Part shown: in pieces, positions 1 to 41,498 of the stretch | Position numbering within the stretch: position 1 is the stretch's first letter | How the letters are laid out: every line of letters begins with the position of its first letter | Virus record (IMG/VR): IMGVR_UViG_3300020391_000002 | Location: 1-41,498 of that record | Direction: 5' to 3' (one strand) | Length of the DNA: 41,498 nucleotides | From: a virus | Notes under the pieces: generated by a model | What the model saw: the letters and a program-made list of their open reading frames with translations, nothing else | Told to the model about the DNA's origin: nothing | The model's database searches: none | Translations under genes and position numbers: made by a program

Positions 1-31
1 TCTGATCCTTCAAAAGCGTTAGAAAATGGCT
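1..31. repeat. Terminal direct repeat, left copy (circular closure)
   Basis: These 31 bases are identical to the last 31 bases of the window. A single minus-strand reading frame continues through the join when the two copies are merged. This is what an assembler leaves when a circular or circularly permuted genome is cut open. A true short physical terminal repeat is possible but less likely, because the cut falls inside a gene. Confidence 0.93.
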
Positions 32-863
32 TTGCAATCCCTAGAAAATCATTATCTTGTCCTACAAAAGCATCTGACAAAATTTTTGTAACCTGCAATG
101 CTTCTTGATCTGCAAGCACAAAACTATTGCTTAAACCCTTGCTAAAACCTCGTATTTCGCTTTCTCCTGCACTTCCTTGATCATTTAATGCTTTCGCATT
201 TCCGAACACTTCATCGTCTGAAAACGCCCCAGAATTGTTGAACACTTTTTCTGGGTTAAATGATGGTAAATCAGATGCAACAAAATTATTTGAAAGTATT
301 TTGCCAAAAGGGAAAGATGGTTCATCTAAGACTGTTGCGGCGTTATTTAAAACTTTTTGCGGAACAATTATTTCATCATCAGTAAAACCTACAGAATTAG
401 AGAACGTTTTACCTGATCCCAAGGATGGAGAATCTAAAACAATAGCTGAGTTTGAAAAAGCAAGTCCAAATCCAAAGGAAGGTTCATCATCAAATGAGAT
501 TGTATTAGAAAGCACTTTTCCAAAAGGAAACGCAGGCTCGTCTGCAATGGAGGTTGAGTTTGCAAAACTTTTGACAAAACCTAATGATGGTTCATCAACA
601 AGCGCGGCGGCATTGGAAAGCGATTTTCCTGATCCTAATACTAAGTTTTGAGATACACTTAGCGCATCTGAAAATTCTTTTACAATTAAAAATTGACCAG
701 TTGCAAAACTGGCGATCATCGCTTTGCTGATGGGTGTTGCGAAAAGAGTTAAATCCGTTATGGATTGTCGTAATGATTTATCCGTGACTGATTTTTGTAA
801 GGATTTGTCAACTTCATCCTTGTTTAAAGATTTACTAATTACATTTAACTTTATGAAACTCAA
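1..863 (-). CDS. 18-residue tandem-repeat structural protein, N-terminal part (continues across the circular join)
   Basis: The frame opens just after a stop at 866-864 and runs off the left edge of the window. Through the 31-base overlap it continues into 41467-41092, giving about 412 residues in all. The likely start is TTG at 863-861, overlapping the TGA of the upstream gene; the first ATG in frame is only at 719. After about 80 non-repeat residues comes a tandem array with a strict 18-residue period. Each unit is like KVLSNTISFDDEPSFGFG: Lys, hydrophobic, Ser-Asn/Asp, then an Asp/Glu-rich turn and a Pro-Ser-Phe-Gly segment. About 14-16 units are present, the last ones degenerate. The regular period suggests an extended beta-structured fibre or appendage. 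It lies between a BppU-like protein and tail-fibre genes, so it is probably a virion surface component. I do not recognise the family. Confidence 0.85.
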   Translation of the reverse strand, partial: MSFIKLNVISKSLNKDEVDKSLQKSVTDKSLRQSITDLTLFATPISKAMIASFATGQFLIVKEFSDALSVSQNLVLGSGKSLSNAAALVDEPSLGFVKSFANSTSIADEPAFPFGKVLSNTISFDDEPSFGFGLAFSNSAIVLDSPSLGSGKTFSNSVGFTDDEIIVPQKVLNNAATVLDEPSFPFGKILSNNFVASDLPSFNPEKVFNNSGAFSDDEVFGNAKALNDQGSAGESEIRGFSKGLSNSFVLADQEALQVTKILSDAFVGQDNDFLGIAKPFSNAFEGS

Positions 864-1192
864 CTAAAATCATCTCGAATTACTAAATCGACAACTTCGA
901 AGACAGTTTCCACTGTACCATCAGAAAATTGAACATTTACTTCTCCTTCATAACTGCCTGCATCAATACTTGCCAAATTATTACCGACAGAAAATATTAA
1001 TTTGCCATCTTGCAAATCTGTCCCTGTGTTGGCCGCTGTCAAAGTGAATAAAGTTGTATCTGATCCTCTTGCTCTTACTTTTAACGTTGAAGTGCCTCCA
1101 GAACAATCAACCGCCGCACCTGAGTCAGCGCGGGTTAAGTTTACCTGTATCTGTGGACCAGTATCGCCTTGAACAAGAAATAGTGTGGTCAT
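860..1192 (-). CDS. BppU N-terminal-like small structural protein
   Basis: The product is 110 residues of beta-rich, Ig-like composition. It starts with a short segment (FLVQGDTGPQIQVNLT) typical of the N-terminal domain of lactococcal baseplate upper proteins (BppU_N) and related fibre-anchor domains. It ends with the pattern AGSYEGEVNVQFSDGTVETV, which is a common final strand pair of that fold. The ATG at 1192 follows an AAGGC ribosome site. Its stop overlaps the probable TTG start of the repeat protein downstream, so the two are likely translationally coupled. The likely role is attaching or spacing a surface fibre. The family assignment is by pattern only. Confidence 0.6.
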   Translation of the reverse strand: MTTLFLVQGDTGPQIQVNLTRADSGAAVDCSGGTSTLKVRARGSDTTLFTLTAANTGTDLQDGKLIFSVGNNLASIDAGSYEGEVNVQFSDGTVETVFEVVDLVIRDDFS

Positions 1193-2043: not shown

Positions 2044-3258
2044 TTACGCTGAGACTTTTTGTTTAACGATAGCCTCTGGCAAAATTACCTGACCACCAAC
2101 TCTACGTCTTGCAACATATCGAATGTTTCCAGTTGTTGCTTGAGTAAATGGGTCACGTAAAACTGCAAGAGAAACGCGGTCAACGATCATGTATCCTCTT
2201 CGGAAATCACCAAAGGCAACAGGGAAATTACCTGCCCCTACGTTTGGCATATCAGTCGCTTGAATGTACGGGTGTCCTAAAACAGTCGTCATTGGTCCAC
2301 CAGTTAGCATCATGCCTGCTTGGAAAACATATTGTCCCGCTGTATCTTTTAACTTTCGGATTGCCGCTAATGTGCTCCTGTTAAAAACAAAAGTCGCATT
2401 CGCAGAATACTCAGCTTTTACGCTGTGAACCAAAGTGATAAGACCATCGCCTGTCAAAGCAGTTCCGTTGCCAGATACTACTTCCGAAACATCAGAGTTT
2501 GTCATGAATCCTTCGGGCTTACCTACCGCGTTTCCAGATACAAATGCCGCACCCTCTGCTTTCGCAAACTGCTCGGCAAATTCTGATTGCATTTCCGCTT
2601 CAAGATCAAATACTGAATCTTCTAGGTCTTGCTCAGAAATATCGACCAACGCATAATATTCATGTGCAGGTATCTCTTCCAAGCCAACTTGATATCCAGT
2701 TGTCTCTGATCTTGTTCCTGATTCAGCAACCCACTGCGCCGCAAAAGTACCAGTTCTTTTTGGCATCTGTATTGAACGCTGTGCTGTTTGTCTGATTCTT
2801 GCAATTGATCTGATTGGCGATATTTCAGTGATATCTTTAATCAACTCTCTAACATACTCAGGAGGTGCAAGATACCCGCCAGTTGAATCATTAGAAACAG
2901 TCAATGCTTTCTTTTCATCAGGGCTTAGTCCTTCAATTCCTTTTCTACAATAAGCGTCAAATGCTGATATGCCTTCATCAATTTGCTTTGTTGAAAATCC
3001 AGAGTTCGGCCTACGCATCGCGACCTCAACTCTATCCATCTGCTCCAAAAGAGCATCTTGGCTTTTCTGAGACTGAACCATTCTTTGATTGATGTCTTCA
3101 TAGCTATCCATCTTTGCTTCGATAGCGGCTAATTTAGCATCAAGCGCTGAATCTTCCTGTCCTTTAGCCATCTTGTCCAATTTTTCGTCATAGCTTTTTT
3201 TGAACTCCTCAAAAGCTGAACCCATCTCGGACACTAAAGTTTTAATATCTTCACTCAT
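2044..3258 (-). CDS. HK97-type major capsid protein
   Basis: The product is 404 residues, the usual length for an HK97-fold capsid precursor. Residues 1-~85 are charged and predicted coiled coil (delta/scaffold domain), rich in Glu, Lys and Gln. The capsid body begins around residue 95-115. Recognisable HK97 patterns include GGYLAPPEYVRELI (about residues 128-141), where the N-arm begins, and AEGAAFVSGNAVGKPEGF (about 235-252). The C-terminal end contains GDFRRGYMIVDR, the usual last strand of the A-domain/P-domain region. The ATG at 3258 has GAGG upstream and follows the protease gene by three bases. The delta domain is presumably removed by the adjacent protease during head maturation. Confidence 0.95.
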   Translation of the reverse strand: MSEDIKTLVSEMGSAFEEFKKSYDEKLDKMAKGQEDSALDAKLAAIEAKMDSYEDINQRMVQSQKSQDALLEQMDRVEVAMRRPNSGFSTKQIDEGISAFDAYCRKGIEGLSPDEKKALTVSNDSTGGYLAPPEYVRELIKDITEISPIRSIARIRQTAQRSIQMPKRTGTFAAQWVAESGTRSETTGYQVGLEEIPAHEYYALVDISEQDLEDSVFDLEAEMQSEFAEQFAKAEGAAFVSGNAVGKPEGFMTNSDVSEVVSGNGTALTGDGLITLVHSVKAEYSANATFVFNRSTLAAIRKLKDTAGQYVFQAGMMLTGGPMTTVLGHPYIQATDMPNVGAGNFPVAFGDFRRGYMIVDRVSLAVLRDPFTQATTGNIRYVARRRVGGQVILPEAIVKQKVSA

Positions 3259-10380: not shown

Positions 10381-11601
10381 TTATTTTATCTGAATTTCAT
10401 TAAATGTTTGAGACGTATCTTTTAAAATAGCGTCTCTCCCTGTGAATTCCTGCCACCGCCTTACGATAACATCACAATAAGATTCATCCAATTCTATCAT
10501 TCTGCAATGCCTGTTAGTTTTCTCAGAGGCAATAAGAGTACTACCCGATCCACCAAAAATATCCAAAACTATATCGCTTCCCTTCGTATTGTTTGTGATC
10601 TGATATTCAAGAAGATCAACAGGCTTCATCGTCGGATGCACGTCATTTCTATTGGGCCGATTAAAATCAAGTACCGTTACTTGAGTGCGATCTGATGCCC
10701 AAAGATGCGCCGATCCGTCTTTCCAACCATAAAGGCAGGGCTCATGCTTCCAATGATAATCTTGTCTTCCCATCACCATAGAGTTTTTATTCCAAATCAA
10801 ACACTGTCTTACCTTCCACCCCGCATCTTTCACAGCACCTCTGAATGCATAACTTTCCGTATCCGCATGCCAAATATAAAAAACGGCACCCTCTTTCATT
10901 ACCAGATCTGCTGAAATAAACGAATCTTTTAAAAATAATCTAAAATTTTCATCATTCATATTGTCATTTTCTATTTTCATCCTGTCTTTTGTTTTACCAA
11001 CATAATCGACGTTGTATGGAGGGTCTGTTATTAATTGATCAGCTAACTCACCATCCATCAACTTTTCAATATCTCTTAACAGGGTCGCGTCCCCACAAAT
11101 TAATCTGTGATTTCCTAACACCCAAATATCACCCTTCTTTGTTTTTGCCTCTTTTATCAATTCAGGAACGTAGTCTGGGTCAATTAATCCTTCCTCTTCG
11201 AAATCACCAAGAATACCTAGATCTGCAAGTTCTCTTTCATCGAAACCTGTCAAATCAAGATCATAATCCTCGCCCAATAAATCTGATATTTCTATGTTTA
11301 ACAATTCGTAATTCCAATCTGCAGATTCACCACTTTTGTTATCCATTATTCTATAAGCTCTCGATTGGGCATCTGTTAAATTTTTAGCAATAACGCAAGG
11401 AACCTCAAGTAACCCCAATGCCTTTGCCGCCTTTAACCTAGTATGACCAACAACTACTTCATAATTAGAATCAAGTACCAAAGGTTGCTGAAAACCAAAC
11501 TCTTTTATAGAACGCAATACATCACTCACTGCCTGATCGTTTATTCTTGGATTATTTTTGTAAGGCACGATTTCATTTATATCAATAACTTCAATTTCCA
11601 T
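10381..11601 (-). CDS. DNA methyltransferase with N-terminal ParB-like domain
   Basis: The product is 406 residues. Residues 1-~110 are a ParB/Srx-type domain (INEIVPYKNNPRIND, then VVVGHTRLKAAKALGL). From ~155 on it is an amino-methyltransferase of the beta order: catalytic TDPPYNVDY at 192-200 precedes the SAM-binding IFGGSGSTLIASE at 348-360, with HPTMKPVDL between. It should methylate adenine N6 or cytosine N4 in a short site that cannot be read from sequence. No partner restriction enzyme is evident, so it is probably an orphan phage enzyme protecting its DNA or marking it. ATG 11601 has AAGGGA upstream. Confidence 0.93.
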   Translation of the reverse strand: MEIEVIDINEIVPYKNNPRINDQAVSDVLRSIKEFGFQQPLVLDSNYEVVVGHTRLKAAKALGLLEVPCVIAKNLTDAQSRAYRIMDNKSGESADWNYELLNIEISDLLGEDYDLDLTGFDERELADLGILGDFEEEGLIDPDYVPELIKEAKTKKGDIWVLGNHRLICGDATLLRDIEKLMDGELADQLITDPPYNVDYVGKTKDRMKIENDNMNDENFRLFLKDSFISADLVMKEGAVFYIWHADTESYAFRGAVKDAGWKVRQCLIWNKNSMVMGRQDYHWKHEPCLYGWKDGSAHLWASDRTQVTVLDFNRPNRNDVHPTMKPVDLLEYQITNNTKGSDIVLDIFGGSGSTLIASEKTNRHCRMIELDESYCDVIVRRWQEFTGRDAILKDTSQTFNEIQIK

Positions 11602-32243: not shown

Positions 32244-35200
32244 TTACTCCTCCAGTTTTTTAACACGTTTTCTAAGCTCCTGTATCTCTTTTAAAAGCAA
32301 AGGAACCATCTTTGAATAATCGATACCCATCATCTCTCCATCTTCTTGAGGAACGCTTACAGCGTTTGGACAGGTATGTATTACCTCCTGTGCGATCATA
32401 CCATAATCTTCATGCTTGCCATCACTTTTCCAATCAAATTGTCTTACGAGCAATGAATCGATGGCTGTACCGCTATCATCTGCATCTTCAATATTTTCTT
32501 TTAACCTTGCATCTGAGGATGTGTTATATGCGGTTGCACTACCAGTAACAGTAATAGAACCAACAATAGGTGAGCCACCTGTATTTACAAACTCCATAGC
32601 TGTACCGCTACTATGTCTTATTACTTCAATAGTGGTTGAACTTACGTTACTGGCAAAAGTTGCTCTCCCATCGTTGCGGAGAGTTATAGCATTGTCTGTA
32701 TCAGCTACTGCGCTAGTGCCTACGAGAAAATCACCGCCAGATGTCAGCCTAGCAGACTCACTGCCGTTAGCAAAAAACCGTAGTGTTCCGCTTGAACTAT
32801 TTGTATCTAGATCTAATGAATAACCGCCACCCGCTTTAATTATCATTCCACGATCAGTAGATAATATTGTTCTGTTAGCAGTTCCATGATCAACTCTAAA
32901 ATCACGACCTGTATCAGTAAACACATTTAATAATGACGCGGGAACTTGTGTGCCAATACCCAATCCCGTTGATGTCAGGCGCATTTTTTCACTACCTGCG
33001 CCTACCTCAAATGTCAGCGCAGAAGGTCCATTGAGAAATAACATTCCACTGCTTGATTGAACTCTCTGATTAGCGGCAGTTGTTAATCCAGTTGCGGCAT
33101 TTACCGTCCCACTGAAATGAGCGTCTTTAAACTTTGCGGCAGTTAATCCCAAATCAATAGCGGCATTATTTGCCGTGCCGTTTGAATTTGCGGGAACTAT
33201 GGCATTAGTAGCACTTGAAAATTGAATATTTACATTACCTTGACCAATTTGTATTTCATTACCAAAATAAGCAACACTACCTTTTAGGTTTGAATCTTTC
33301 CTAAACTCAACTAAGTTTCCGTCCCCAGTAAGACGATTTACATTTAAAGCAACATTATTATCTCTTACAAAAGAACCTGATCCATTGCTTTGAAATCTAA
33401 TGCCTGCGGAAGTATCGTTATCTGCTGTTTTGCCGATTAATAGGTTGCCGTTTGACAAAAGCACCATTCTCTCTCCACCACCGTTACCACCTTGGAAAGT
33501 GTCAAATGCTAAATTTCCATGTCCAGTCCCTGTTACTTCTCCTCTAATTCCTGATACTTTACCTGAATTAAAATTAGTGGCAGTTGATAAAAATGTTATA
33601 CCAGTTGAGGCTTCACCAAATGAAAGAGATGTTACTGGTGAGACTCCAATACCAACATTTACACCACTAGCAAAACTTGCAGTACCATCAGTCTTGAGAA
33701 AGAAATCCGATGTGCGAGTACCACCGCCAAAGCCCATTCCAAATGAAGATACTGAGATGTTGCCTTTTTGAACAGTGTCTTGATAAAATCTAGCTATATC
33801 TCCGGCAGTGTTCAATCTATTTAATTCAATAGGATTATCGGAGGCGGTTGTGACGCGAACCTGATCGTTAGACATTAAGGCAATGCCTGCTGTAGCTAAA
33901 GATGTGGCAGTCTTACCCACAAGCAAGTTACCACTTTTATCGAATCTGCCTCGCTCTATGAGAGTATTTGCCCCACCATTTTGATTTGTGTAAAAACTTA
34001 AAAACCCTGCGCCATTGTTTCCTGCTTCATCTGTGCCGCCTTTAATTCCTGCCCTTGTAGTCCTTATGTAATTGCTTCCATCGTAATAATGATCAGAAAA
34101 AGTAATGATAGAGCCTTTTTCATTTGTATCTGCTTCTATAGGATTAAAAAGATCAAAAGAGGATTCTGCAATTTGCACAGTGCCAGATGTATGTCCACCG
34201 TTATGAGAAATTTGTAGTTTTGTTACGGGCGATGAGGTTCCAATACCAACGTTGCCGTTATCAAGTATTGTTAATGAAGCGCTTCCATTAGTAGCTAGTG
34301 TAAGTGATGTATCATTGACCGCAGTAATAAATTGATTAGGATTTCCTATGGTAATTTTATCTGTACTATTTAATTGAATACCACCAGATAAATATGAAGT
34401 TCCAGCAACATGTAATTTATATGTTGGATTAGTAGTGCCAATACCAACGCGGCCTGATGAGTCTATGCGGAGTCGCTCATTTTCACCGCCAGTCATAAAC
34501 TGTAGTACAGCAGAACCACCAAGCCCTGATCTAATATAATTAGATATAGATCCAGAAGATGTTCTTAATTCAATTTCAGAAACACCGCCAATAGAATCTA
34601 TTAAAAGTGTTTGATTACCAGAAGAGCTGCTTATATTAAGCCCCGTAGCTGTAATAGCACCACTAAAAACTGATGAGCCGTCATGCGATATCCTCAATCT
34701 TTCAGTTGGAGTTGTTCCATTGCTTGAAGTAGAGAAGAACATATCCGTATCACCTGCTCCCGGACTATTTGTTCTTACTACGCCTATTTTTGCAGATAAT
34801 CCAGATGAGGCCATTTGGAAGTCAATATCAAATCCACTATTATTGCCACCTGCTGAATTTTCTAGTTTTAAGGCGTGAGCTACTCCTGATTGATTTTTTT
34901 GAATATGAACAATGGAATCAGGCGCAGTGGTAGCTCCAACCATAAGTGAGCCGTTGGGAATGTTGACTTGCTGTAAATGGTTTATTGATAATGATTCGAC
35001 CATATCAGCACCGCTTTGTGGCTGAGAATATAAAGATAATCCTCCTCCAAAATTACCGCTACCTGCTGTTTTTTTACCAAATATTGCACCAGTTCTTATT
35101 TCTAAGTTTGAACCGCTAAACCACCTTTGAGCAAAAGTTATTCCGTTTCCAAGAGAACCTGCACTATCTCCACCTTCTCTAACAATTCGTAAACCATTTG

Positions 35201-38200
35201 TTCCGTCTGCTAAACTTGCAGTTCCGGATGTTGTGTAGTCTCCGCCTGTAGCACTTACGCTACCTGAGAATGTGGCGTTCTGAGAGGAGTCAAGTGTTAA
35301 TGCTGTGGTTAGTGTAGCTGTAGATTGAGCGGCAGTCTTGAAGACTAAATCACCACCTGCGTTATTATCTCTTATTGCTGATAACTCTGCGCCTCCTGCT
35401 GTGGCAGTTCCAGATGTTGAGTTTACAAATCTGAATGATGAAGATGTTGATTGATCTGAACTGTTATTACGGATTTGAATTAATGTGGTATCTCCCCCTG
35501 CGTTTGTTGACATTGTTTCAAGCTTTGCACTTGGGGATGTGGTTCCAACACCTACTCTTCCTGATGAGTCTATGCGCATACGCTCTAAACCGTTTTGATA
35601 TAACGCGACAGGATGATTAGTGCTAGACCCTATGCGAATATCAGTATCTTGAACTGTTTGAATAAAGGCTTTTGTACTTTCGCTACCTGATTTTACTTGA
35701 AAATTTGTATGAGCTGATCCTTTGACAGTCAAGGTACTGTCGGGATCAGTTTCTCCAATACCAACGTTGCCAGATGAATTTACTGCAAAATAACTACTTG
35801 CACCTCGCAGTATTTCGAACATATCAGTAGTAGTGTTGCCTTGTGCAAGAGACCAAGCTGTACCTTGACCTTGTCGTTGCATTTGAACACTCGCAGCTCC
35901 AGCCGATGATGGAAATATTTGAACTGTTCCTGTTGATAATATATTTCCTGCCGCATGAAGAGATGCTTGAGGATTAGTGGTTCCAATACCTAATCCTGTA
36001 TTATTGATTCGTACTTGTTCCACATTACTAGCTCTAAAAAATAAAGAATCTCCAGCTGCACCAACTCCAACATGAGCATCACTGGTTGTTGAACTATCTG
36101 AGAAAGTTATAAAAGCGTTTGCGGCATCCGATCTTTTGAAAGATGAAACAATAGAAGTACCAGACGTTTCTACCGAAAGCCGTCTTGCGGGCGACGTGGT
36201 TCCCAGACCAATGTTGCCTGCGCTAGTAATACGCATACGCTCTGTAGGAGAGCTAGCACCGTCTGCAGTTGTCCAGAATTGCAGATTAGTTGGCATATCA
36301 TTATTGCCTGGAGTGCCGTCTACAAAACTAATAACAAAAGCACCGTCTAAAAACTGATCTCCATCATTTCCACGAAATGCTATATAACCTAATTGATCGC
36401 CTGCTTGTACAATTGTGTTACCATTTACAGTTGTGCTTCTTGTATGCTCAAAAGCCAATCCTGTAGAGCCTGAATTATTACTTTGCCGAGATAAAGTCAA
36501 ATTTCCAGTAAAATGTCCTGTACCATTTACATTGAGTTTATCTCCATAGGAAGAAGTAGTGCCTACAAGAAGATTGCCAGAACTATCAATACGCATATAC
36601 TCAGAAGAGCCTGTTTCGTTTCTAAAGGTATGCGTTTCACTATCTAAATTTGAAACTTGATTATTAGTTCCAATCTCAAGATAGCCATCTGTGTTACTAA
36701 GGCGTATACGAGAAGCACTTGTACTACTTTCGTGTACGTGCAATCGCTCTGCGGGCGATGTAGTTCCCAGACCAAGGTTGCCGCCATTTATATATGAATT
36801 ACCCAGAGCACTAAGTAAAACATTAATATTATTATTTCCATCAAATAATGAAAGTTGTCCGTCACCACCCCCTGATAAATGAAATTTTGCTTTTCTTACA
36901 TCGTTTGAGTTACTAAAGTGGGCAATGTCTGTGCTTGTTGTAGCAGTTGCTAAAACCTCTAATGGTGCTGAGGGCGATGTGGTTCCTATACCAAGTCGCG
37001 AGGAAGAACTATCAAAAAACAAGCCTTGATTTCCCGAACCATCATAAAAGCTAATGTCACCGTTGTTAGCAAATTGTGCTGTCAAAATAGTATTAGTGCC
37101 GTTATAGCGTTTTAGAAATATATCGCCATGGCTTGTTCCATTTTGACTTGTTAGATTTAAATCTCCACCATTACTATCTATGAATCCTTTTTGATTAGTC
37201 GCATCTGAATCTTGCAGTGTAATTCTTGCAAAACCAGTATTAGCTACAGTAAGCCCTGTGCTTGTAACGCTACCTGTAAATTCTGCTTTACCGTTTATAT
37301 CTAAAGCTAGCCCTGTACCCGCGTGATCTATTTGTAGCCCTGTGAATGGACAATTAATGTCAGTTATGTTAATTCTAGCCAATCCATTTGAAAGCGCATC
37401 ATTGCGAGGGCTTTCTATTAAGAATGCTTGCTCCCCAGCACCCATGCCTCCAATTTCAAGCTTTGCACTTGGGGATGCGGTTCCAACACCTACTCGGCCT
37501 GATGAGTCTATTCTCATGCGTTCACTACCGCCAGTGCTGAAACCAAGGACATTTGAACTAGCTCTAAACATACCTGTATCAGTATCATTAATAAACTGGT
37601 AGCTAGGACTGCTTGCTGAACCATCACCGATGCGTGTAAGTCCAGTAATTATTGCGTTGCCGCCAACGTGTAATTTTTGCGTTGGGTTTCCTATGTTTAT
37701 TCCTGCGTTGCCTGATGAGTTTATAGTAAGAACTGTTAGTGAATCAGTTTTATTTTCTACTTGAAAATTTCCGTTTGCTAAACTATTAAGTCTGTATCTT
37801 TTACCACTAGTATGTGTCAGATCAAATTCACAATTATTATTAATAGTTCCAATAGTTAATCCATCTGCACTCAAAGAAGTGGTTCCGATTCCAACGCGAC
37901 CAGAACTATTAATACGCATACGCTCTGTAGGTGCTGAAGATGCGGCTGATGTTCCAAAGCGTAATGTGTGATCATTTGAAGTGCTTTCAGCGACTGCAGT
38001 AATAAAAGTACCTCGAGTAGTAGTATTTGTACCAGAAAGCCATAATTGAACACCAGTGTTTGCTGTTCCTACAGGATTTACAAAACTTGCAATTTTTACA
38101 GTATTACCAGAAGAAGGTTCAGATACTGTAAGACGTTCTGTTGGAGATGTGGTTCCAATACCCAATCCTGTGCTGTTAATAATAGCTCTATTTGTTCCAC

Positions 38201-40616
38201 TTGTTTGAAATAATATTGCGTCAGTTCCTGAAGAAACTGCATTGATTCTATTGTGAGCAAGTTCTAAATAATTGGTTGAATTATATGAGGCTCTTATTGT
38301 ATTGACATCTGCTCCTCCGCTAGATACTTCAAGTTTAGTTGAGGGCGCAGTGGTAGCTCCGACCATAAGGGAGCCGTTGGGAATGTTGACTTTGTTAGAT
38401 TGGATTGTCATTTCAGGGGAACCGCCTGTTGAGACAAACTGGAGGGTATTACTTGTATTATCAAGTTTTATTTGACCTACTGATTCAGAAGAATCATCTC
38501 CAAAAAATATACCAGCAAACCCAGTTGCAGGAGCATTTATTGATATGACTGTCCCTGCACTGTTATTGTTTTGAAATAATGCTACAGTCCTTGCATTCAC
38601 AGAAGAAAGACCCGTTGTTCCTCCTCTTACTACATCAAGCTTTGCACTTGGCGCAGTGGTAGCTCCAACCATAAGTGAGCCGTTGGGGATGTTGACGTTT
38701 TGTGATCCTGTAAGATGTAATACTTGAGTTCCACCAGTTGTAAAATTTAGGTTATTAGCTCCTTGACTGTACATTCCAGTGTCAGTGTCATCGTCAAAGG
38801 AAAAAGTTGGATTATTTGCGCTACTTACAATAGCCCTAAGCCTTGCTCCTTTGCCTCCTAAGTTAGCTTGTAAAACATTTGTTGAAGTGCCAAATTCTGC
38901 AATGTTAAATTCTGTAGCACTTACTGAGCCTGTCACGCTTATGCCTGTGGAGGTGGTTTGGAGTTTTACATTATTATCAAATCGTAGAACTACTTGAGCG
39001 TTAGGAACACACTCAATAAAATTTTCGCCTGTATCAGACTGTATGCGCAGTTGGTTTGCTTGAATGTTTAAATTACCAGTTCCTGCATCTTTAATATAAC
39101 TGTTATTTCCATCATGATAAATCTGTAAGTCTTGTGAATTACCAAATCGTATTGCATTATTATCAGGAATATTTACATCTGTAAATTGAGAAATAGCGGA
39201 GGCTACTACGCCCCCTGTCACGCTTATGCCTGTGGAGGTTGTCTCTAATTTTAAGTTGCCACTATGATGAAGTGTTGTATTGCCATCTGCTGTCGCAGTT
39301 AAAGAGCTTTGCCCTGCTTTAGCTTGTATATATAGAATCCCCGAAAAGCTTGATGATCCTTGTATAATATTGCTTGAACCATCGTGATATAGTTGTAAAT
39401 CGTTTCCATCACCAAGTCTAAATAATCGATTATCACCTAATGATAAATTTCCCTGTACGGACGTATTCATTTGCAGAATTAAAAGTCCAGAAAAACCTTC
39501 TCCAATTTGGATGTTGCCATTTGAAGTTACTCCTTCTAATGCTCGTTGACCTCCAAAATAAATACGATTATTGCCACCAGAGAAATTTAGTCCTCCACCA
39601 CTTCCGTTGATGAATAATGCTTGAGTTGAAGTGCTATTTACAGTCAATGATCCGAAAGTGCCTGATCCCGTTGATGAGATACCTGCGTTGGCAGTAAACA
39701 CACCGCTATCATTAATGGTTGCTTTTGTTGATCCATCAACTCTGAATTGTATTGCTGAACTATTTACTGCTCCGTCTTCATCAACACCAATTCTGAGATT
39801 TGCTCCGTTTGTTTGAAGAGTAGAAGTTCCAGAGTTATCAGTTAAATTTATGCCTGCACCTGCATCTGTAGAGGTAAAGGTTGCTACAGTATTTGTTGTT
39901 CCTGAGTTTGCACTGATTTCACCACTGGAAATAGCTCCGCTTAGATGTAAGTTTTTGAATCTTGCTCCACTCACGCCCAAATCAGTTGTTCCATCATTTG
40001 ATGCATTTGTGCCTACATTAAATGGTATTATGGATTTCACATTATCATCAAATCTAACACCAACATCTGATGTTCCTATTACCATATCACTAAACTTAGA
40101 ATTAATTTGACCTATGACCGATCCATCTTTTCTAAATTCAGCTACTGCCCCATCACTATTTCTTCTATTTAATCTCAGCGCATAAGTTCCATCTGACGTT
40201 GAGTCCACTCTTACACCTAACTCAACTCCATCCGTTGCGATATTTGACGAAGTTTTATTGACAAGCAAGTTGCCAGATGCATCAACTCGTACACGCTCAC
40301 TTCCATTATTAAAAAATCGTAGTGCGCCTGCTCCATTGTTTTTGAATATTCCATCAGTTGATGAAGTTGCAATTTGCATTGAGTTATCGGATGCAACAAA
40401 ATTTACAGCAACCCCTGTATCAGAACTTGTAAATGTCGCGACAGTATCCGTTGTACCAGAATTGACACTCAAGGTTCCAGTAGAAATTGTGAGAGCACCC
40501 GTTAAAGTGCCCCCACCAACTTCAAGTTTGTCGGTATTGAGATTGGTAAAGTTAGCATCAACCTCATTATTAGTAAGAGGTGAACCTTTACCACTACGAG
40601 TGACAATAGTAGCCAT
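32244..40616 (-). CDS. Giant tail fibre with C-terminal peptidase S74 chaperone domain
   Basis: The product is 2,790 residues, about a fifth of the genome. Most of it is beta-rich repeat: about fourteen copies of a [G/N]-x-V/I-GIGTTSP-xxx-L-x-V unit, such as SGRVGIGTTSPSAKL. NIPNGSLMVGATTAP occurs three times, and its DNA is nearly identical over 47 bases (34921-34967, 38344-38390, 38650-38696). The last ~90 residues are an intramolecular chaperone (S74): SDARLKENIE with the self-cleaving Ser near 2701, YGMIAQEV and a coiled-coil end. It folds the fibre trimer and is then cut off. This is the main candidate for host recognition. ATG 40616 follows AAGAG. Confidence 0.93.
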   Translation of the reverse strand: MATIVTRSGKGSPLTNNEVDANFTNLNTDKLEVGGGTLTGALTISTGTLSVNSGTTDTVATFTSSDTGVAVNFVASDNSMQIATSSTDGIFKNNGAGALRFFNNGSERVRVDASGNLLVNKTSSNIATDGVELGVRVDSTSDGTYALRLNRRNSDGAVAEFRKDGSVIGQINSKFSDMVIGTSDVGVRFDDNVKSIIPFNVGTNASNDGTTDLGVSGARFKNLHLSGAISSGEISANSGTTNTVATFTSTDAGAGINLTDNSGTSTLQTNGANLRIGVDEDGAVNSSAIQFRVDGSTKATINDSGVFTANAGISSTGSGTFGSLTVNSTSTQALFINGSGGGLNFSGGNNRIYFGGQRALEGVTSNGNIQIGEGFSGLLILQMNTSVQGNLSLGDNRLFRLGDGNDLQLYHDGSSNIIQGSSSFSGILYIQAKAGQSSLTATADGNTTLHHSGNLKLETTSTGISVTGGVVASAISQFTDVNIPDNNAIRFGNSQDLQIYHDGNNSYIKDAGTGNLNIQANQLRIQSDTGENFIECVPNAQVVLRFDNNVKLQTTSTGISVTGSVSATEFNIAEFGTSTNVLQANLGGKGARLRAIVSSANNPTFSFDDDTDTGMYSQGANNLNFTTGGTQVLHLTGSQNVNIPNGSLMVGATTAPSAKLDVVRGGTTGLSSVNARTVALFQNNNSAGTVISINAPATGFAGIFFGDDSSESVGQIKLDNTSNTLQFVSTGGSPEMTIQSNKVNIPNGSLMVGATTAPSTKLEVSSGGADVNTIRASYNSTNYLELAHNRINAVSSGTDAILFQTSGTNRAIINSTGLGIGTTSPTERLTVSEPSSGNTVKIASFVNPVGTANTGVQLWLSGTNTTTRGTFITAVAESTSNDHTLRFGTSAASSAPTERMRINSSGRVGIGTTSLSADGLTIGTINNNCEFDLTHTSGKRYRLNSLANGNFQVENKTDSLTVLTINSSGNAGINIGNPTQKLHVGGNAIITGLTRIGDGSASSPSYQFINDTDTGMFRASSNVLGFSTGGSERMRIDSSGRVGVGTASPSAKLEIGGMGAGEQAFLIESPRNDALSNGLARINITDINCPFTGLQIDHAGTGLALDINGKAEFTGSVTSTGLTVANTGFARITLQDSDATNQKGFIDSNGGDLNLTSQNGTSHGDIFLKRYNGTNTILTAQFANNGDISFYDGSGNQGLFFDSSSSRLGIGTTSPSAPLEVLATATTSTDIAHFSNSNDVRKAKFHLSGGGDGQLSLFDGNNNINVLLSALGNSYINGGNLGLGTTSPAERLHVHESSTSASRIRLSNTDGYLEIGTNNQVSNLDSETHTFRNETGSSEYMRIDSSGNLLVGTTSSYGDKLNVNGTGHFTGNLTLSRQSNNSGSTGLAFEHTRSTTVNGNTIVQAGDQLGYIAFRGNDGDQFLDGAFVISFVDGTPGNNDMPTNLQFWTTADGASSPTERMRITSAGNIGLGTTSPARRLSVETSGTSIVSSFKRSDAANAFITFSDSSTTSDAHVGVGAAGDSLFFRASNVEQVRINNTGLGIGTTNPQASLHAAGNILSTGTVQIFPSSAGAASVQMQRQGQGTAWSLAQGNTTTDMFEILRGASSYFAVNSSGNVGIGETDPDSTLTVKGSAHTNFQVKSGSESTKAFIQTVQDTDIRIGSSTNHPVALYQNGLERMRIDSSGRVGVGTTSPSAKLETMSTNAGGDTTLIQIRNNSSDQSTSSSFRFVNSTSGTATAGGAELSAIRDNNAGGDLVFKTAAQSTATLTTALTLDSSQNATFSGSVSATGGDYTTSGTASLADGTNGLRIVREGGDSAGSLGNGITFAQRWFSGSNLEIRTGAIFGKKTAGSGNFGGGLSLYSQPQSGADMVESLSINHLQQVNIPNGSLMVGATTAPDSIVHIQKNQSGVAHALKLENSAGGNNSGFDIDFQMASSGLSAKIGVVRTNSPGAGDTDMFFSTSSNGTTPTERLRISHDGSSVFSGAITATGLNISSSSGNQTLLIDSIGGVSEIELRTSSGSISNYIRSGLGGSAVLQFMTGGENERLRIDSSGRVGIGTTNPTYKLHVAGTSYLSGGIQLNSTDKITIGNPNQFITAVNDTSLTLATNGSASLTILDNGNVGIGTSSPVTKLQISHNGGHTSGTVQIAESSFDLFNPIEADTNEKGSIITFSDHYYDGSNYIRTTRAGIKGGTDEAGNNGAGFLSFYTNQNGGANTLIERGRFDKSGNLLVGKTATSLATAGIALMSNDQVRVTTASDNPIELNRLNTAGDIARFYQDTVQKGNISVSSFGMGFGGGTRTSDFFLKTDGTASFASGVNVGIGVSPVTSLSFGEASTGITFLSTATNFNSGKVSGIRGEVTGTGHGNLAFDTFQGGNGGGERMVLLSNGNLLIGKTADNDTSAGIRFQSNGSGSFVRDNNVALNVNRLTGDGNLVEFRKDSNLKGSVAYFGNEIQIGQGNVNIQFSSATNAIVPANSNGTANNAAIDLGLTAAKFKDAHFSGTVNAATGLTTAANQRVQSSSGMLFLNGPSALTFEVGAGSEKMRLTSTGLGIGTQVPASLLNVFTDTGRDFRVDHGTANRTILSTDRGMIIKAGGGYSLDLDTNSSSGTLRFFANGSESARLTSGGDFLVGTSAVADTDNAITLRNDGRATFASNVSSTTIEVIRHSSGTAMEFVNTGGSPIVGSITVTGSATAYNTSSDARLKENIEDADDSGTAIDSLLVRQFDWKSDGKHEDYGMIAQEVIHTCPNAVSVPQEDGEMMGIDYSKMVPLLLKEIQELRKRVKKLEE

Positions 40617-40626
40617 TTGCTAACTC

Positions 40627-41079
40627 TTATGATGCTGTAAGTGTAATAGTCCAAGTTACAGACATTGTATCGTCTGATGCTTTATTTACTACTGGGAAAA
40701 CTGTACGACAAAGCATGTCACCACCACTGCTTGCATTGAAGATCCCTGCCTCTGTAACCGCGCCAGTACCTTCTCCTGCTTCAAAAGATGAAACATAAAC
40801 AACAGTATTAGTTGATGGCGTTGAGCTGTCAAGGGCTTCTCTTGAGCCTAGAATCGATACCAAATCGGTTTGACCTGCCGCCGCCGCAGTTGTACCTGAT
40901 CCAAGAGCCATGTGAGACATTACATTTTTGGATGTGCCTGTCATACGAGAACAAATGAACGTCAAACCAACGGTAACGATCAAATTCTTCTCATTCCTTT
41001 TTTCTTTAATTTTTCCAAACTTGTCCCGTAAAACTATCTCTAGTTCTCCATAAAGTTTGATGTTTGTTTGCTTGTTCAT
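40627..41079 (-). CDS. Small structural protein of the fibre module
   Basis: The product is 150 residues. A conserved-looking start (KLYGELEIVLRDKFGKIKEK) and a middle pattern, ICSRMTGTSKNVMSHMALGS, are seen in small virion proteins of marine tailed phages. The rest is Thr/Ser/Gly-rich beta sequence (VTWTITLTAS at the end). ATG 41079 follows AAGGT. It sits between the 18-residue-repeat protein and the giant fibre, so it may be an adaptor between fibre parts. Function inferred from position. Confidence 0.78.
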   Translation of the reverse strand: MNKQTNIKLYGELEIVLRDKFGKIKEKRNEKNLIVTVGLTFICSRMTGTSKNVMSHMALGSGTTAAAAGQTDLVSILGSREALDSSTPSTNTVVYVSSFEAGEGTGAVTEAGIFNASSGGDMLCRTVFPVVNKASDDTMSVTWTITLTAS

Positions 41080-41091
41080 ATTTATACCTTA

Positions 41092-41467
41092 TCAAAAAGT
41101 GAAACTTGTTCCAACATAATCCTCTGCAAAATAATCAAAAGCGCAGTAACCTTGACTCCTGCCAACTCCTGCATCACTCAGCCCAATACCGTTGTTTTGG
41201 ACAGTTCCGAAACCAATAGTATCATTATCTGCCAAAACTGAGAAATTAGAAACAGTTTTTATGAAAGTAAAAGTTGAATCATCTCCTGCTATACCGTCAG
41301 CATCATCTGTAACAAAAGCAGTGTCAGCTAAAAAGATATCTCTTGCAAATTGTGGCACATCAGAAAAGTTTGCCGAATCGCTCACAACTTTTGTCAACGG
41401 CAAGTCTTGTGCATCTGTAAATGCCGCGCTGTTTGCAAAAACCTTTCCAACAAGCAACGTGTCATTA
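41092..41467 (-). CDS. 18-residue tandem-repeat structural protein, C-terminal part
   Basis: This is the continuation of the gene at 1-863 across the circular join. Bases 41468-41498 are the duplicated overlap. Repeat units continue (KVFANSAAFTDAQDLPLT, KVVSDSANFSDVPQFARD) and become degenerate. The end is a non-repeat tail of about 30 residues (GYCAFDYFAEDYVGTSFTF), aromatic-rich, possibly a foot or tip domain. The internal ATG at 41457 is just the first Met in the truncated right half and is not a gene start. Confidence 0.85.
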
Positions 41468-41498
41468 TCTGATCCTTCAAAAGCGTTAGAAAATGGCT
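41468..41498. repeat. Terminal direct repeat, right copy (circular closure)
   Basis: Exact copy of bases 1-31. Removing one copy leaves 41,467 unique bases and joins the two halves of the 18-residue-repeat protein in frame. Confidence 0.93.

Follow-up and report, generated by a model that had tools for sequence, protein, structure and literature searches.

A repeat gene across the contig ends

The window (the whole stretch of 41,498 nucleotides analysed here) begins and ends with exactly the same 31 bp, which gives a circle of 41,467 bp. When the ends are joined, one open frame runs on the minus strand from a TTG at 863, across the join, to 41092, and encodes a protein of 412 aa. The first part of this gene (1..863, minus strand) encodes residues 1-287 and the second part (41092..41498, minus strand) leads to the stop codon, positions 41468-41498 being a repetition of 1-31. 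The same frame had been proposed in the initial annotation of the window, and it is recovered in another contig, L003, where both window pieces map to one contiguous gene and overlap by exactly 31 bp. The L003 copy, also of 412 aa, is about 95% identical (94% at the nucleotide level) and spans the join in frame, without any indel. As L003 carries the gene uninterrupted with exactly the 31-base overlap, the join is considered genuine.

The TTG start is supported by its TTGA overlap with the stop codon of the upstream gene (860..863, minus strand), since equivalent junctions (TTGA, GTGA, ATGA or TAATG) are kept in relatives, and the two genes are separated by one of two spacings in 128 of 131 loci. 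Such an overlap may reflect translational coupling of the two genes.

The 412-aa protein is periodic over most of its length. Its autocorrelation, compared with 500 shuffles, gives z = 13.7 at lag 18, 11.1 at lag 36 and 11.4 at lag 54, so that the 18-residue period previously noticed is real. The period had been described as strict and gap-free, and this holds for 15 gapless units spanning residues 62-331 (residues 62-287 at 1..680 and residues 288-331 at 41338..41467, both on the minus strand), but not for what follows, namely an enlarged 26-residue unit with the motif TDDADG (residues 332-357, 41260..41337, minus strand, containing FVTDDADGIAGDDSTF), two further units (residues 358-393) and a non-repetitive end of about 20 residues. 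A conserved C-terminal end, SDAGVGRSQGYCAFDYFAEDYVGTSFTF (residues 385-412, 41095..41178, minus strand), is proposed below to act as a dock. At the other extremity, the initial annotation had missed a set of 9-residue repeats (residues 8-52, VISKSLNKD/EVDKSLQKS/VTDKSLRQS/ITDLTLFAT..., 708..842, minus strand), for which autocorrelation of the first 60 residues gives z = 6.2 at lag 9; this N-terminal period is also found in L010, L013 and L033. The 9-mers are half the length of the main unit, read VxDKSLxxS in the window and IAFKKAVAx in relatives, and differ in number among relatives.

Three other genes on the same strand accompany the repeat gene. Upstream lies a small BppU-like gene (860..1192, minus strand), the proposed anchor, which matches phrog_1084 at E 1.9e-6 over residues 14-100 of 110; no solved structure was matched by its product, the likeness being to the phrog_1084 profile. 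Downstream lies a small gene of the phrog_5417 family (40627..41079, minus strand; 150 aa, E 4e-29 over 135 residues), the proposed connector between arm and fibre. It is followed by a gene for a 2,790-aa fibre (32244..40616, minus strand), the proposed payload, which starts with IVTRSGKGSPLTNNEVDANFTNLN and has a peptidase-S74-like C-terminal end. The repeat protein had been placed between the BppU-like protein and the S74 fibre; it does follow the former and lie near the latter, but the small phrog_5417 gene, which had been overlooked, stands between repeat protein and fibre.

Elsewhere in the window, near the terminase gene, 10381-11601 (minus strand) encodes a protein matching ParB-like and DNA methyltransferase PHROG families (phrog_498, E 4e-163). 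The major capsid protein (2044-3258, minus strand) has its nearest counterpart among named phages in Rhizobium phage RHph_X2_25 (48% identity over 99%). This likeness weakly hints at an alphaproteobacterial host.

Units and C-terminal end of the repeat family

A scan of IMG/VR with the repeat protein gives 58 loci. Homologues with other repeat numbers, which had been anticipated, are indeed found in metagenomic relatives, with 3 to 31 units, and the family proteins of the loci of two scans measure 116-694 aa. Of the 76 non-redundant proteins that could be tested, 72 have 18 as their strongest period in the range 7-30, three have 20 and one has 19. Taken over 382 units, the profile reads K-x-phi-[SA]-[DN]-S-x-x-phi-[ST]-[DE]-x-x-x-phi-x-phi-G, position 1 being Lys in 77% of the units. 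The Pro-Ser-Phe-Gly step initially considered typical of the unit is present in about six window units but is not part of this family consensus. The units are rich in Ser, Asp and Ala. Their hydrophobic positions 3, 9 and 15 define a 6-residue sub-period, and bulky residues are mostly found at odd positions and small ones at even positions, an alternation that would fit an extended beta chain with one face made of small residues.

The repeats are old, as had been suggested, because the gene is under purifying selection (dN/dS of 0.14 against L003 and 0.26 against L001) and the units of the window gene are at most 69% alike in DNA. When relatives are aligned, internal indels mostly correspond to whole units (54, 18, one 20-residue unit, and 74 = 54 + 20). 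Changes in unit number are read here from these aligned internal indels, differences in total length modulo 18 being uninformative since the N-terminal 9-mers and the enlarged units vary too.

The C-terminal end, D-x-G-S-L-R-S-Q-G-Y-C-x-F-[TD]-Y-F-A-E-D-Y-V-G, can be aligned in all 80 non-redundant members, and in 79 of the 80 the last Gly is followed by 5-6 residues closing in Phe, a final Thr or Ser being ignored. This terminal Phe is superficially like an outer-membrane beta-barrel signal, the residue at -2 being unfit in most members. The TDDxDG unit is present in 68 of the 80 non-redundant relatives; there is one per protein, of the form TDDxDGxAxxDDQ, mostly about 72-77 residues before the C-terminus, and its DxDG suggests a metal site. 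Four loci (L041:5767-7809, L044:5719-6549, L047 and L051) repeat the end motif internally (SFDYFAEDYIY, YDFFAQEYVN, NYFAEDYVEPGY), these additional copies being located inside or ahead of the repeat array, as if one arm could carry more than one dock.

The initial annotation knew of no named family with this unit, and our searches are in agreement with this. No Pfam family is matched by the window and L003 proteins at E up to 1, and PHROG gives only weak matches for the window protein, to phrog_5070 and phrog_7964, both of unknown function, and none to phrog_384. The RTX nonapeptide GGxGxDxhx is absent from the unit consensus. Sequence and profile searches of the PDB with the repeat protein give chance-level matches only (designed helical repeats, silk, and a tail protein at E 9.9). 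No named phage is matched by tblastn with the repeat proteins, a failure to which low-complexity filtering probably contributed; relatives are obtained instead with the C-terminus or the small phrog_5417 protein as bait. A scan of prokaryote genomes with the C-terminal profile finds no relative, the proteomics of AchV4 identifies no clear homologue of the arm, and the open-access literature holds no description of the 18-residue repeat.

The four-gene cassette and its variants

In the loci obtained with the repeat protein as bait, the BppU-like, repeat, phrog_5417 and fibre genes follow each other on one strand, the exceptions being contigs that end earlier, and the fibre N-terminus reads IVTRxGKGxPLTxxExDxNFxNLN. 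As this first set had been chosen by the repeat protein itself, the order was retested with the small protein as bait. An 18-residue repeat protein of 3-31 units is then found directly upstream, preceded by the BppU-like gene, in 77 of 77 loci, and these loci, drawn from the best 80 of at least 590 confirmed relatives (77 fetched), are those closest to the window. The fibre N-terminus is found downstream in 71 of the 71 loci with sufficient sequence, a constant association with a fibre gene, as expected of a side tail-fibre attachment module. Both counts apply to the window-near part of the small-protein family.

The cassette is found in many aquatic phages and is portable. In five examined loci it is located after the J-like tail hub gene, which is where side-fibre genes sit in lambda-like phages. 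In the window, as in L134, L105, L118 and L038, its place is after the major head gene, and in L154 after a portal gene; in the window, it has the capsid gene on one side and the neck genes on the other.

The small phrog_5417 protein family has similarities to Gp80 and Phage_tail_fib, the Gp80 one being seen, below the cut-off, in 13 of 20 members. It also matches the baseplate hub of the archaeal virus HFTV1 at E 2e-7, hinting at a phrog_5417-like domain common to bacterial and archaeal tailed viruses. The match to the hub (PDB 9h4p) covers residues 403-509, with a weaker one at 517-566, possibly in tandem. The HFTV1 baseplate hub carries the tail fibres of that virus at its N-terminus, and not in the region matched here.

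Several named phages have the arm fused to an anchor of another kind. In JWX gp22 (Achromobacter), BcepGomr gp17 (Burkholderia) and their counterparts in Simon, ART and AMA2, two N-terminal domains are followed by a short arm and by the shared C-terminal end. The gene for this fused tail-tip protein is followed by a phrog_5417 gene, then by the fibre, and in the records that cover its other side it comes immediately after the gene of the tape measure. The arm is diverged, its period being close to 20 residues in JWX and AMA2 and only weak in BcepGomr and ART. The BcepGomr and JWX proteins belong to phrog_384 ('virion structural protein'), whose C-termini align with those of our family (hhalign 97.3%, E 2.5e-11). 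The window protein is alike to phrog_384 in its C-terminal region, its end motif and the phrog_5417 and fibre genes that follow, whereas it has neither of the two N-terminal domains of the JWX type, whose short arm has a period nearer 20. It uses instead a separate BppU-like gene, while phrog_384 members match their profile full-length.

In the T4-like Synechococcus phage BUCT-ZZ01, the gene after gp6 (UTS51997) codes for a baseplate wedge domain, matched by phrog_17744 at E 8e-44 and, above the cut-off, by Pfam Baseplate_wedge; this domain is followed by an arm of eight exact 18-residue units (KPRSDTQGLSDDKDYYFT, z = 19.4), then by DYFAENYLV. A phrog_5417 gene is present elsewhere in this genome, near a fibre with a GKGAPLT-like N-terminus. 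BUCT-ZZ01 thus shares with the window the 18-residue units, the end and the small gene, but it differs by its contractile tail, by the fusion of the arm to the wedge domain and by fibre genes located elsewhere in the genome. Finally, the cassette with separate genes is also found in CF418P1 (Achromobacter) and phiA008 (Aeromonas).

Armless homologues of the tail-tip or wedge proteins are found in Iggy, PAJU2, RC1, 733R5, phi297, Mosig, vB_OspM_OC, Melnitz-3 and pf16, and the small phrog_5417 gene was not found anywhere in the genomes of these nine control phages. Among phages reached through the anchor domains, the small gene is therefore present in 8 of 8 with an arm and in 0 of 9 without, where the 8 include several phages of one genus, hence fewer independent events, and phiAxp-1, in which the small gene is present and the extension is diverged, is not counted. 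Within this set, arm and small gene go together.

The relation between small gene and end motif is less regular. The tail-tip protein of the Pseudomonas phage Iggy (gp28, L069:4004-4831) ends in YFAEDYVE, without repeats and without the small gene in the genome; this end is left unexplained by the docking model. A strict rule, by which any YFAEDYVG end would bind the small protein, was given up because of Iggy gp28. In phiAxp-1 and phiA008, the small gene is kept and the C-termini deviate. In view of Iggy gp28, of the internal copies in L041 and L044 and of these deviations, the docking partner of the end motif is given here as a proposal.

A proposed arm holding a receptor-binding fibre

The 412-aa protein is likely to act, in a long-tailed phage, as the arm of a portable fibre cassette made of four genes, a reading based on gene content and sequence comparison. 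The BppU-like protein, replaced elsewhere by a fused tail-tip or baseplate-wedge domain, would anchor the arm on the virion at one end. The tandem 18-residue units, probably beta-structured and multimeric, would span outward, and their number would set the length of the arm and thereby its reach. The conserved end, D-x-G-S-L-R-S-Q-G-Y-C-x-F-x-Y-F-A-E-D-Y-V-G-x4-F, would dock the phrog_5417 protein, through which the receptor-binding fibre would be held. Presence of the arm in the virion and its physical contacts with these partners are predicted accordingly by the model, and gene order and co-occurrence are what point to fibre attachment through the module.

Going further, the unit could represent a new multimeric beta-rod fold serving as an interchangeable, length-adjustable boom, the gain or loss of whole units changing its reach and anchors and fibres being exchanged independently. 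We regard this extension as tentative, and as clearly less probable than the arm itself.

The same working principle would apply if the arm were mounted on the capsid or the collar, as a head or neck fibre. The location of the cassette after head or portal genes, and in the window between capsid and neck genes, would fit such a mounting. However, in other loci this cassette comes after the J-like tail hub gene, its fused versions are tail-tip and baseplate-wedge proteins, and the attachment site need not follow from the position of the cassette genes. A head or neck mounting thus seems unlikely to us.

Slightly less likely still is a stand-alone monomeric solenoid, or an adhesin fibre touching the host by itself, such as a beta-helix with 18 residues per coil; a self-standing solenoid or fibre was also the structure first suggested for the protein. 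In a three-sided left-handed beta-helix one coil is 18 residues, and the 6-residue sub-period of positions 3, 9 and 15 would suit it. Short strands exactly 18 residues apart are also seen in the AlphaFold2 monomer of the L003 protein (21 sequences), but at low confidence (pLDDT 36.9, pTM 0.18); a monomer of six units, modelled with a gapless 24-row alignment, reaches pLDDT 46.3 and pTM 0.30, and Foldseek finds nothing in the PDB at E below 1 with this six-unit model. This low confidence and the lack of a Foldseek match leave a simple monomeric solenoid unsupported. Furthermore, neither the window protein nor that of L003 is matched, at E up to 1, by the hexapeptide profile PF00132, and the register [LIV]-[GAED]-x2-[STAV]-x does not fit the units, which have the right length but mostly a Lys at position 1 where a hexapeptide helix wants a small, inward residue. 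Moreover, a dedicated fibre gene is present downstream in every locus with room for it. An arm linking this downstream fibre, rather than a self-standing one, is favoured by the gene cassette, by the end motif common to the family and by the fusions with baseplate proteins.

A disordered, fast-varying linker, or an assembly factor missing from the mature particle, is the least probable reading, since the low AlphaFold confidence, the Ser/Asp/Ala-rich composition and the wide range of lengths which it would explain are countered by the register fixed in nearly all testable proteins, the bulky/small alternation and the purifying selection, which argue for an ordered repeat, and by the fusion to a baseplate wedge domain, which favours a structural part.

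The linking arm can be compared with known systems. The triple beta-spiral shafts of adenovirus and reovirus fibres are likewise made of short repeats of fixed length, with hydrophobic residues at regular intervals, and act as spacers whose length varies, but no sequence match was found in the PDB, and the arm unit is 18 residues long, with set places for Lys and Asp/Glu. The lactococcal-type BppU module also has a small BppU-like protein beside adhesion genes, but only the gene upstream of the arm resembles it (phrog_1084); to our knowledge, that system includes no repeat arm, no phrog_5417 protein and no S74 fibre.

In Alishewanella phage LSH1, gp34-36 are an Ig-like protein, a small fibril protein and a payload with a poorly predicted beta-helical stretch (PMC13243795). 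In that paper the small protein is matched to 8JOU of podophage GP4, a fibril joining adhesin to collar (PMC13243795). The Gp80 similarity of the phrog_5417 members described above concerns this same family. Compared by description, the LSH1 module has a similar three-gene layout, and it differs from the window cassette by the lyase-like N-terminal domain of its payload. The repeat arm could be a possible cause of the low-confidence spacer beside the LSH1 fibre module (PMC13243795).

Fibre-attachment modules and repetitive spacers are of already known kinds. What appears to be new is this family of repeats, together with the motif at its end and its combination with at least three anchors. Whether repeat number governs fibre reach is testable in the isolates BUCT-ZZ01, CF418P1, phiA008 and JWX. 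The hosts within reach of a phage depend on the attachment of its fibres, and for uncultured aquatic phages the way in which these are mounted is mostly unknown. In viromes where BLAST fails and monomer models are uninformative, the repeat and the end motif can serve annotators as marks of the cassette, with which arm, connector and fibre are found together.
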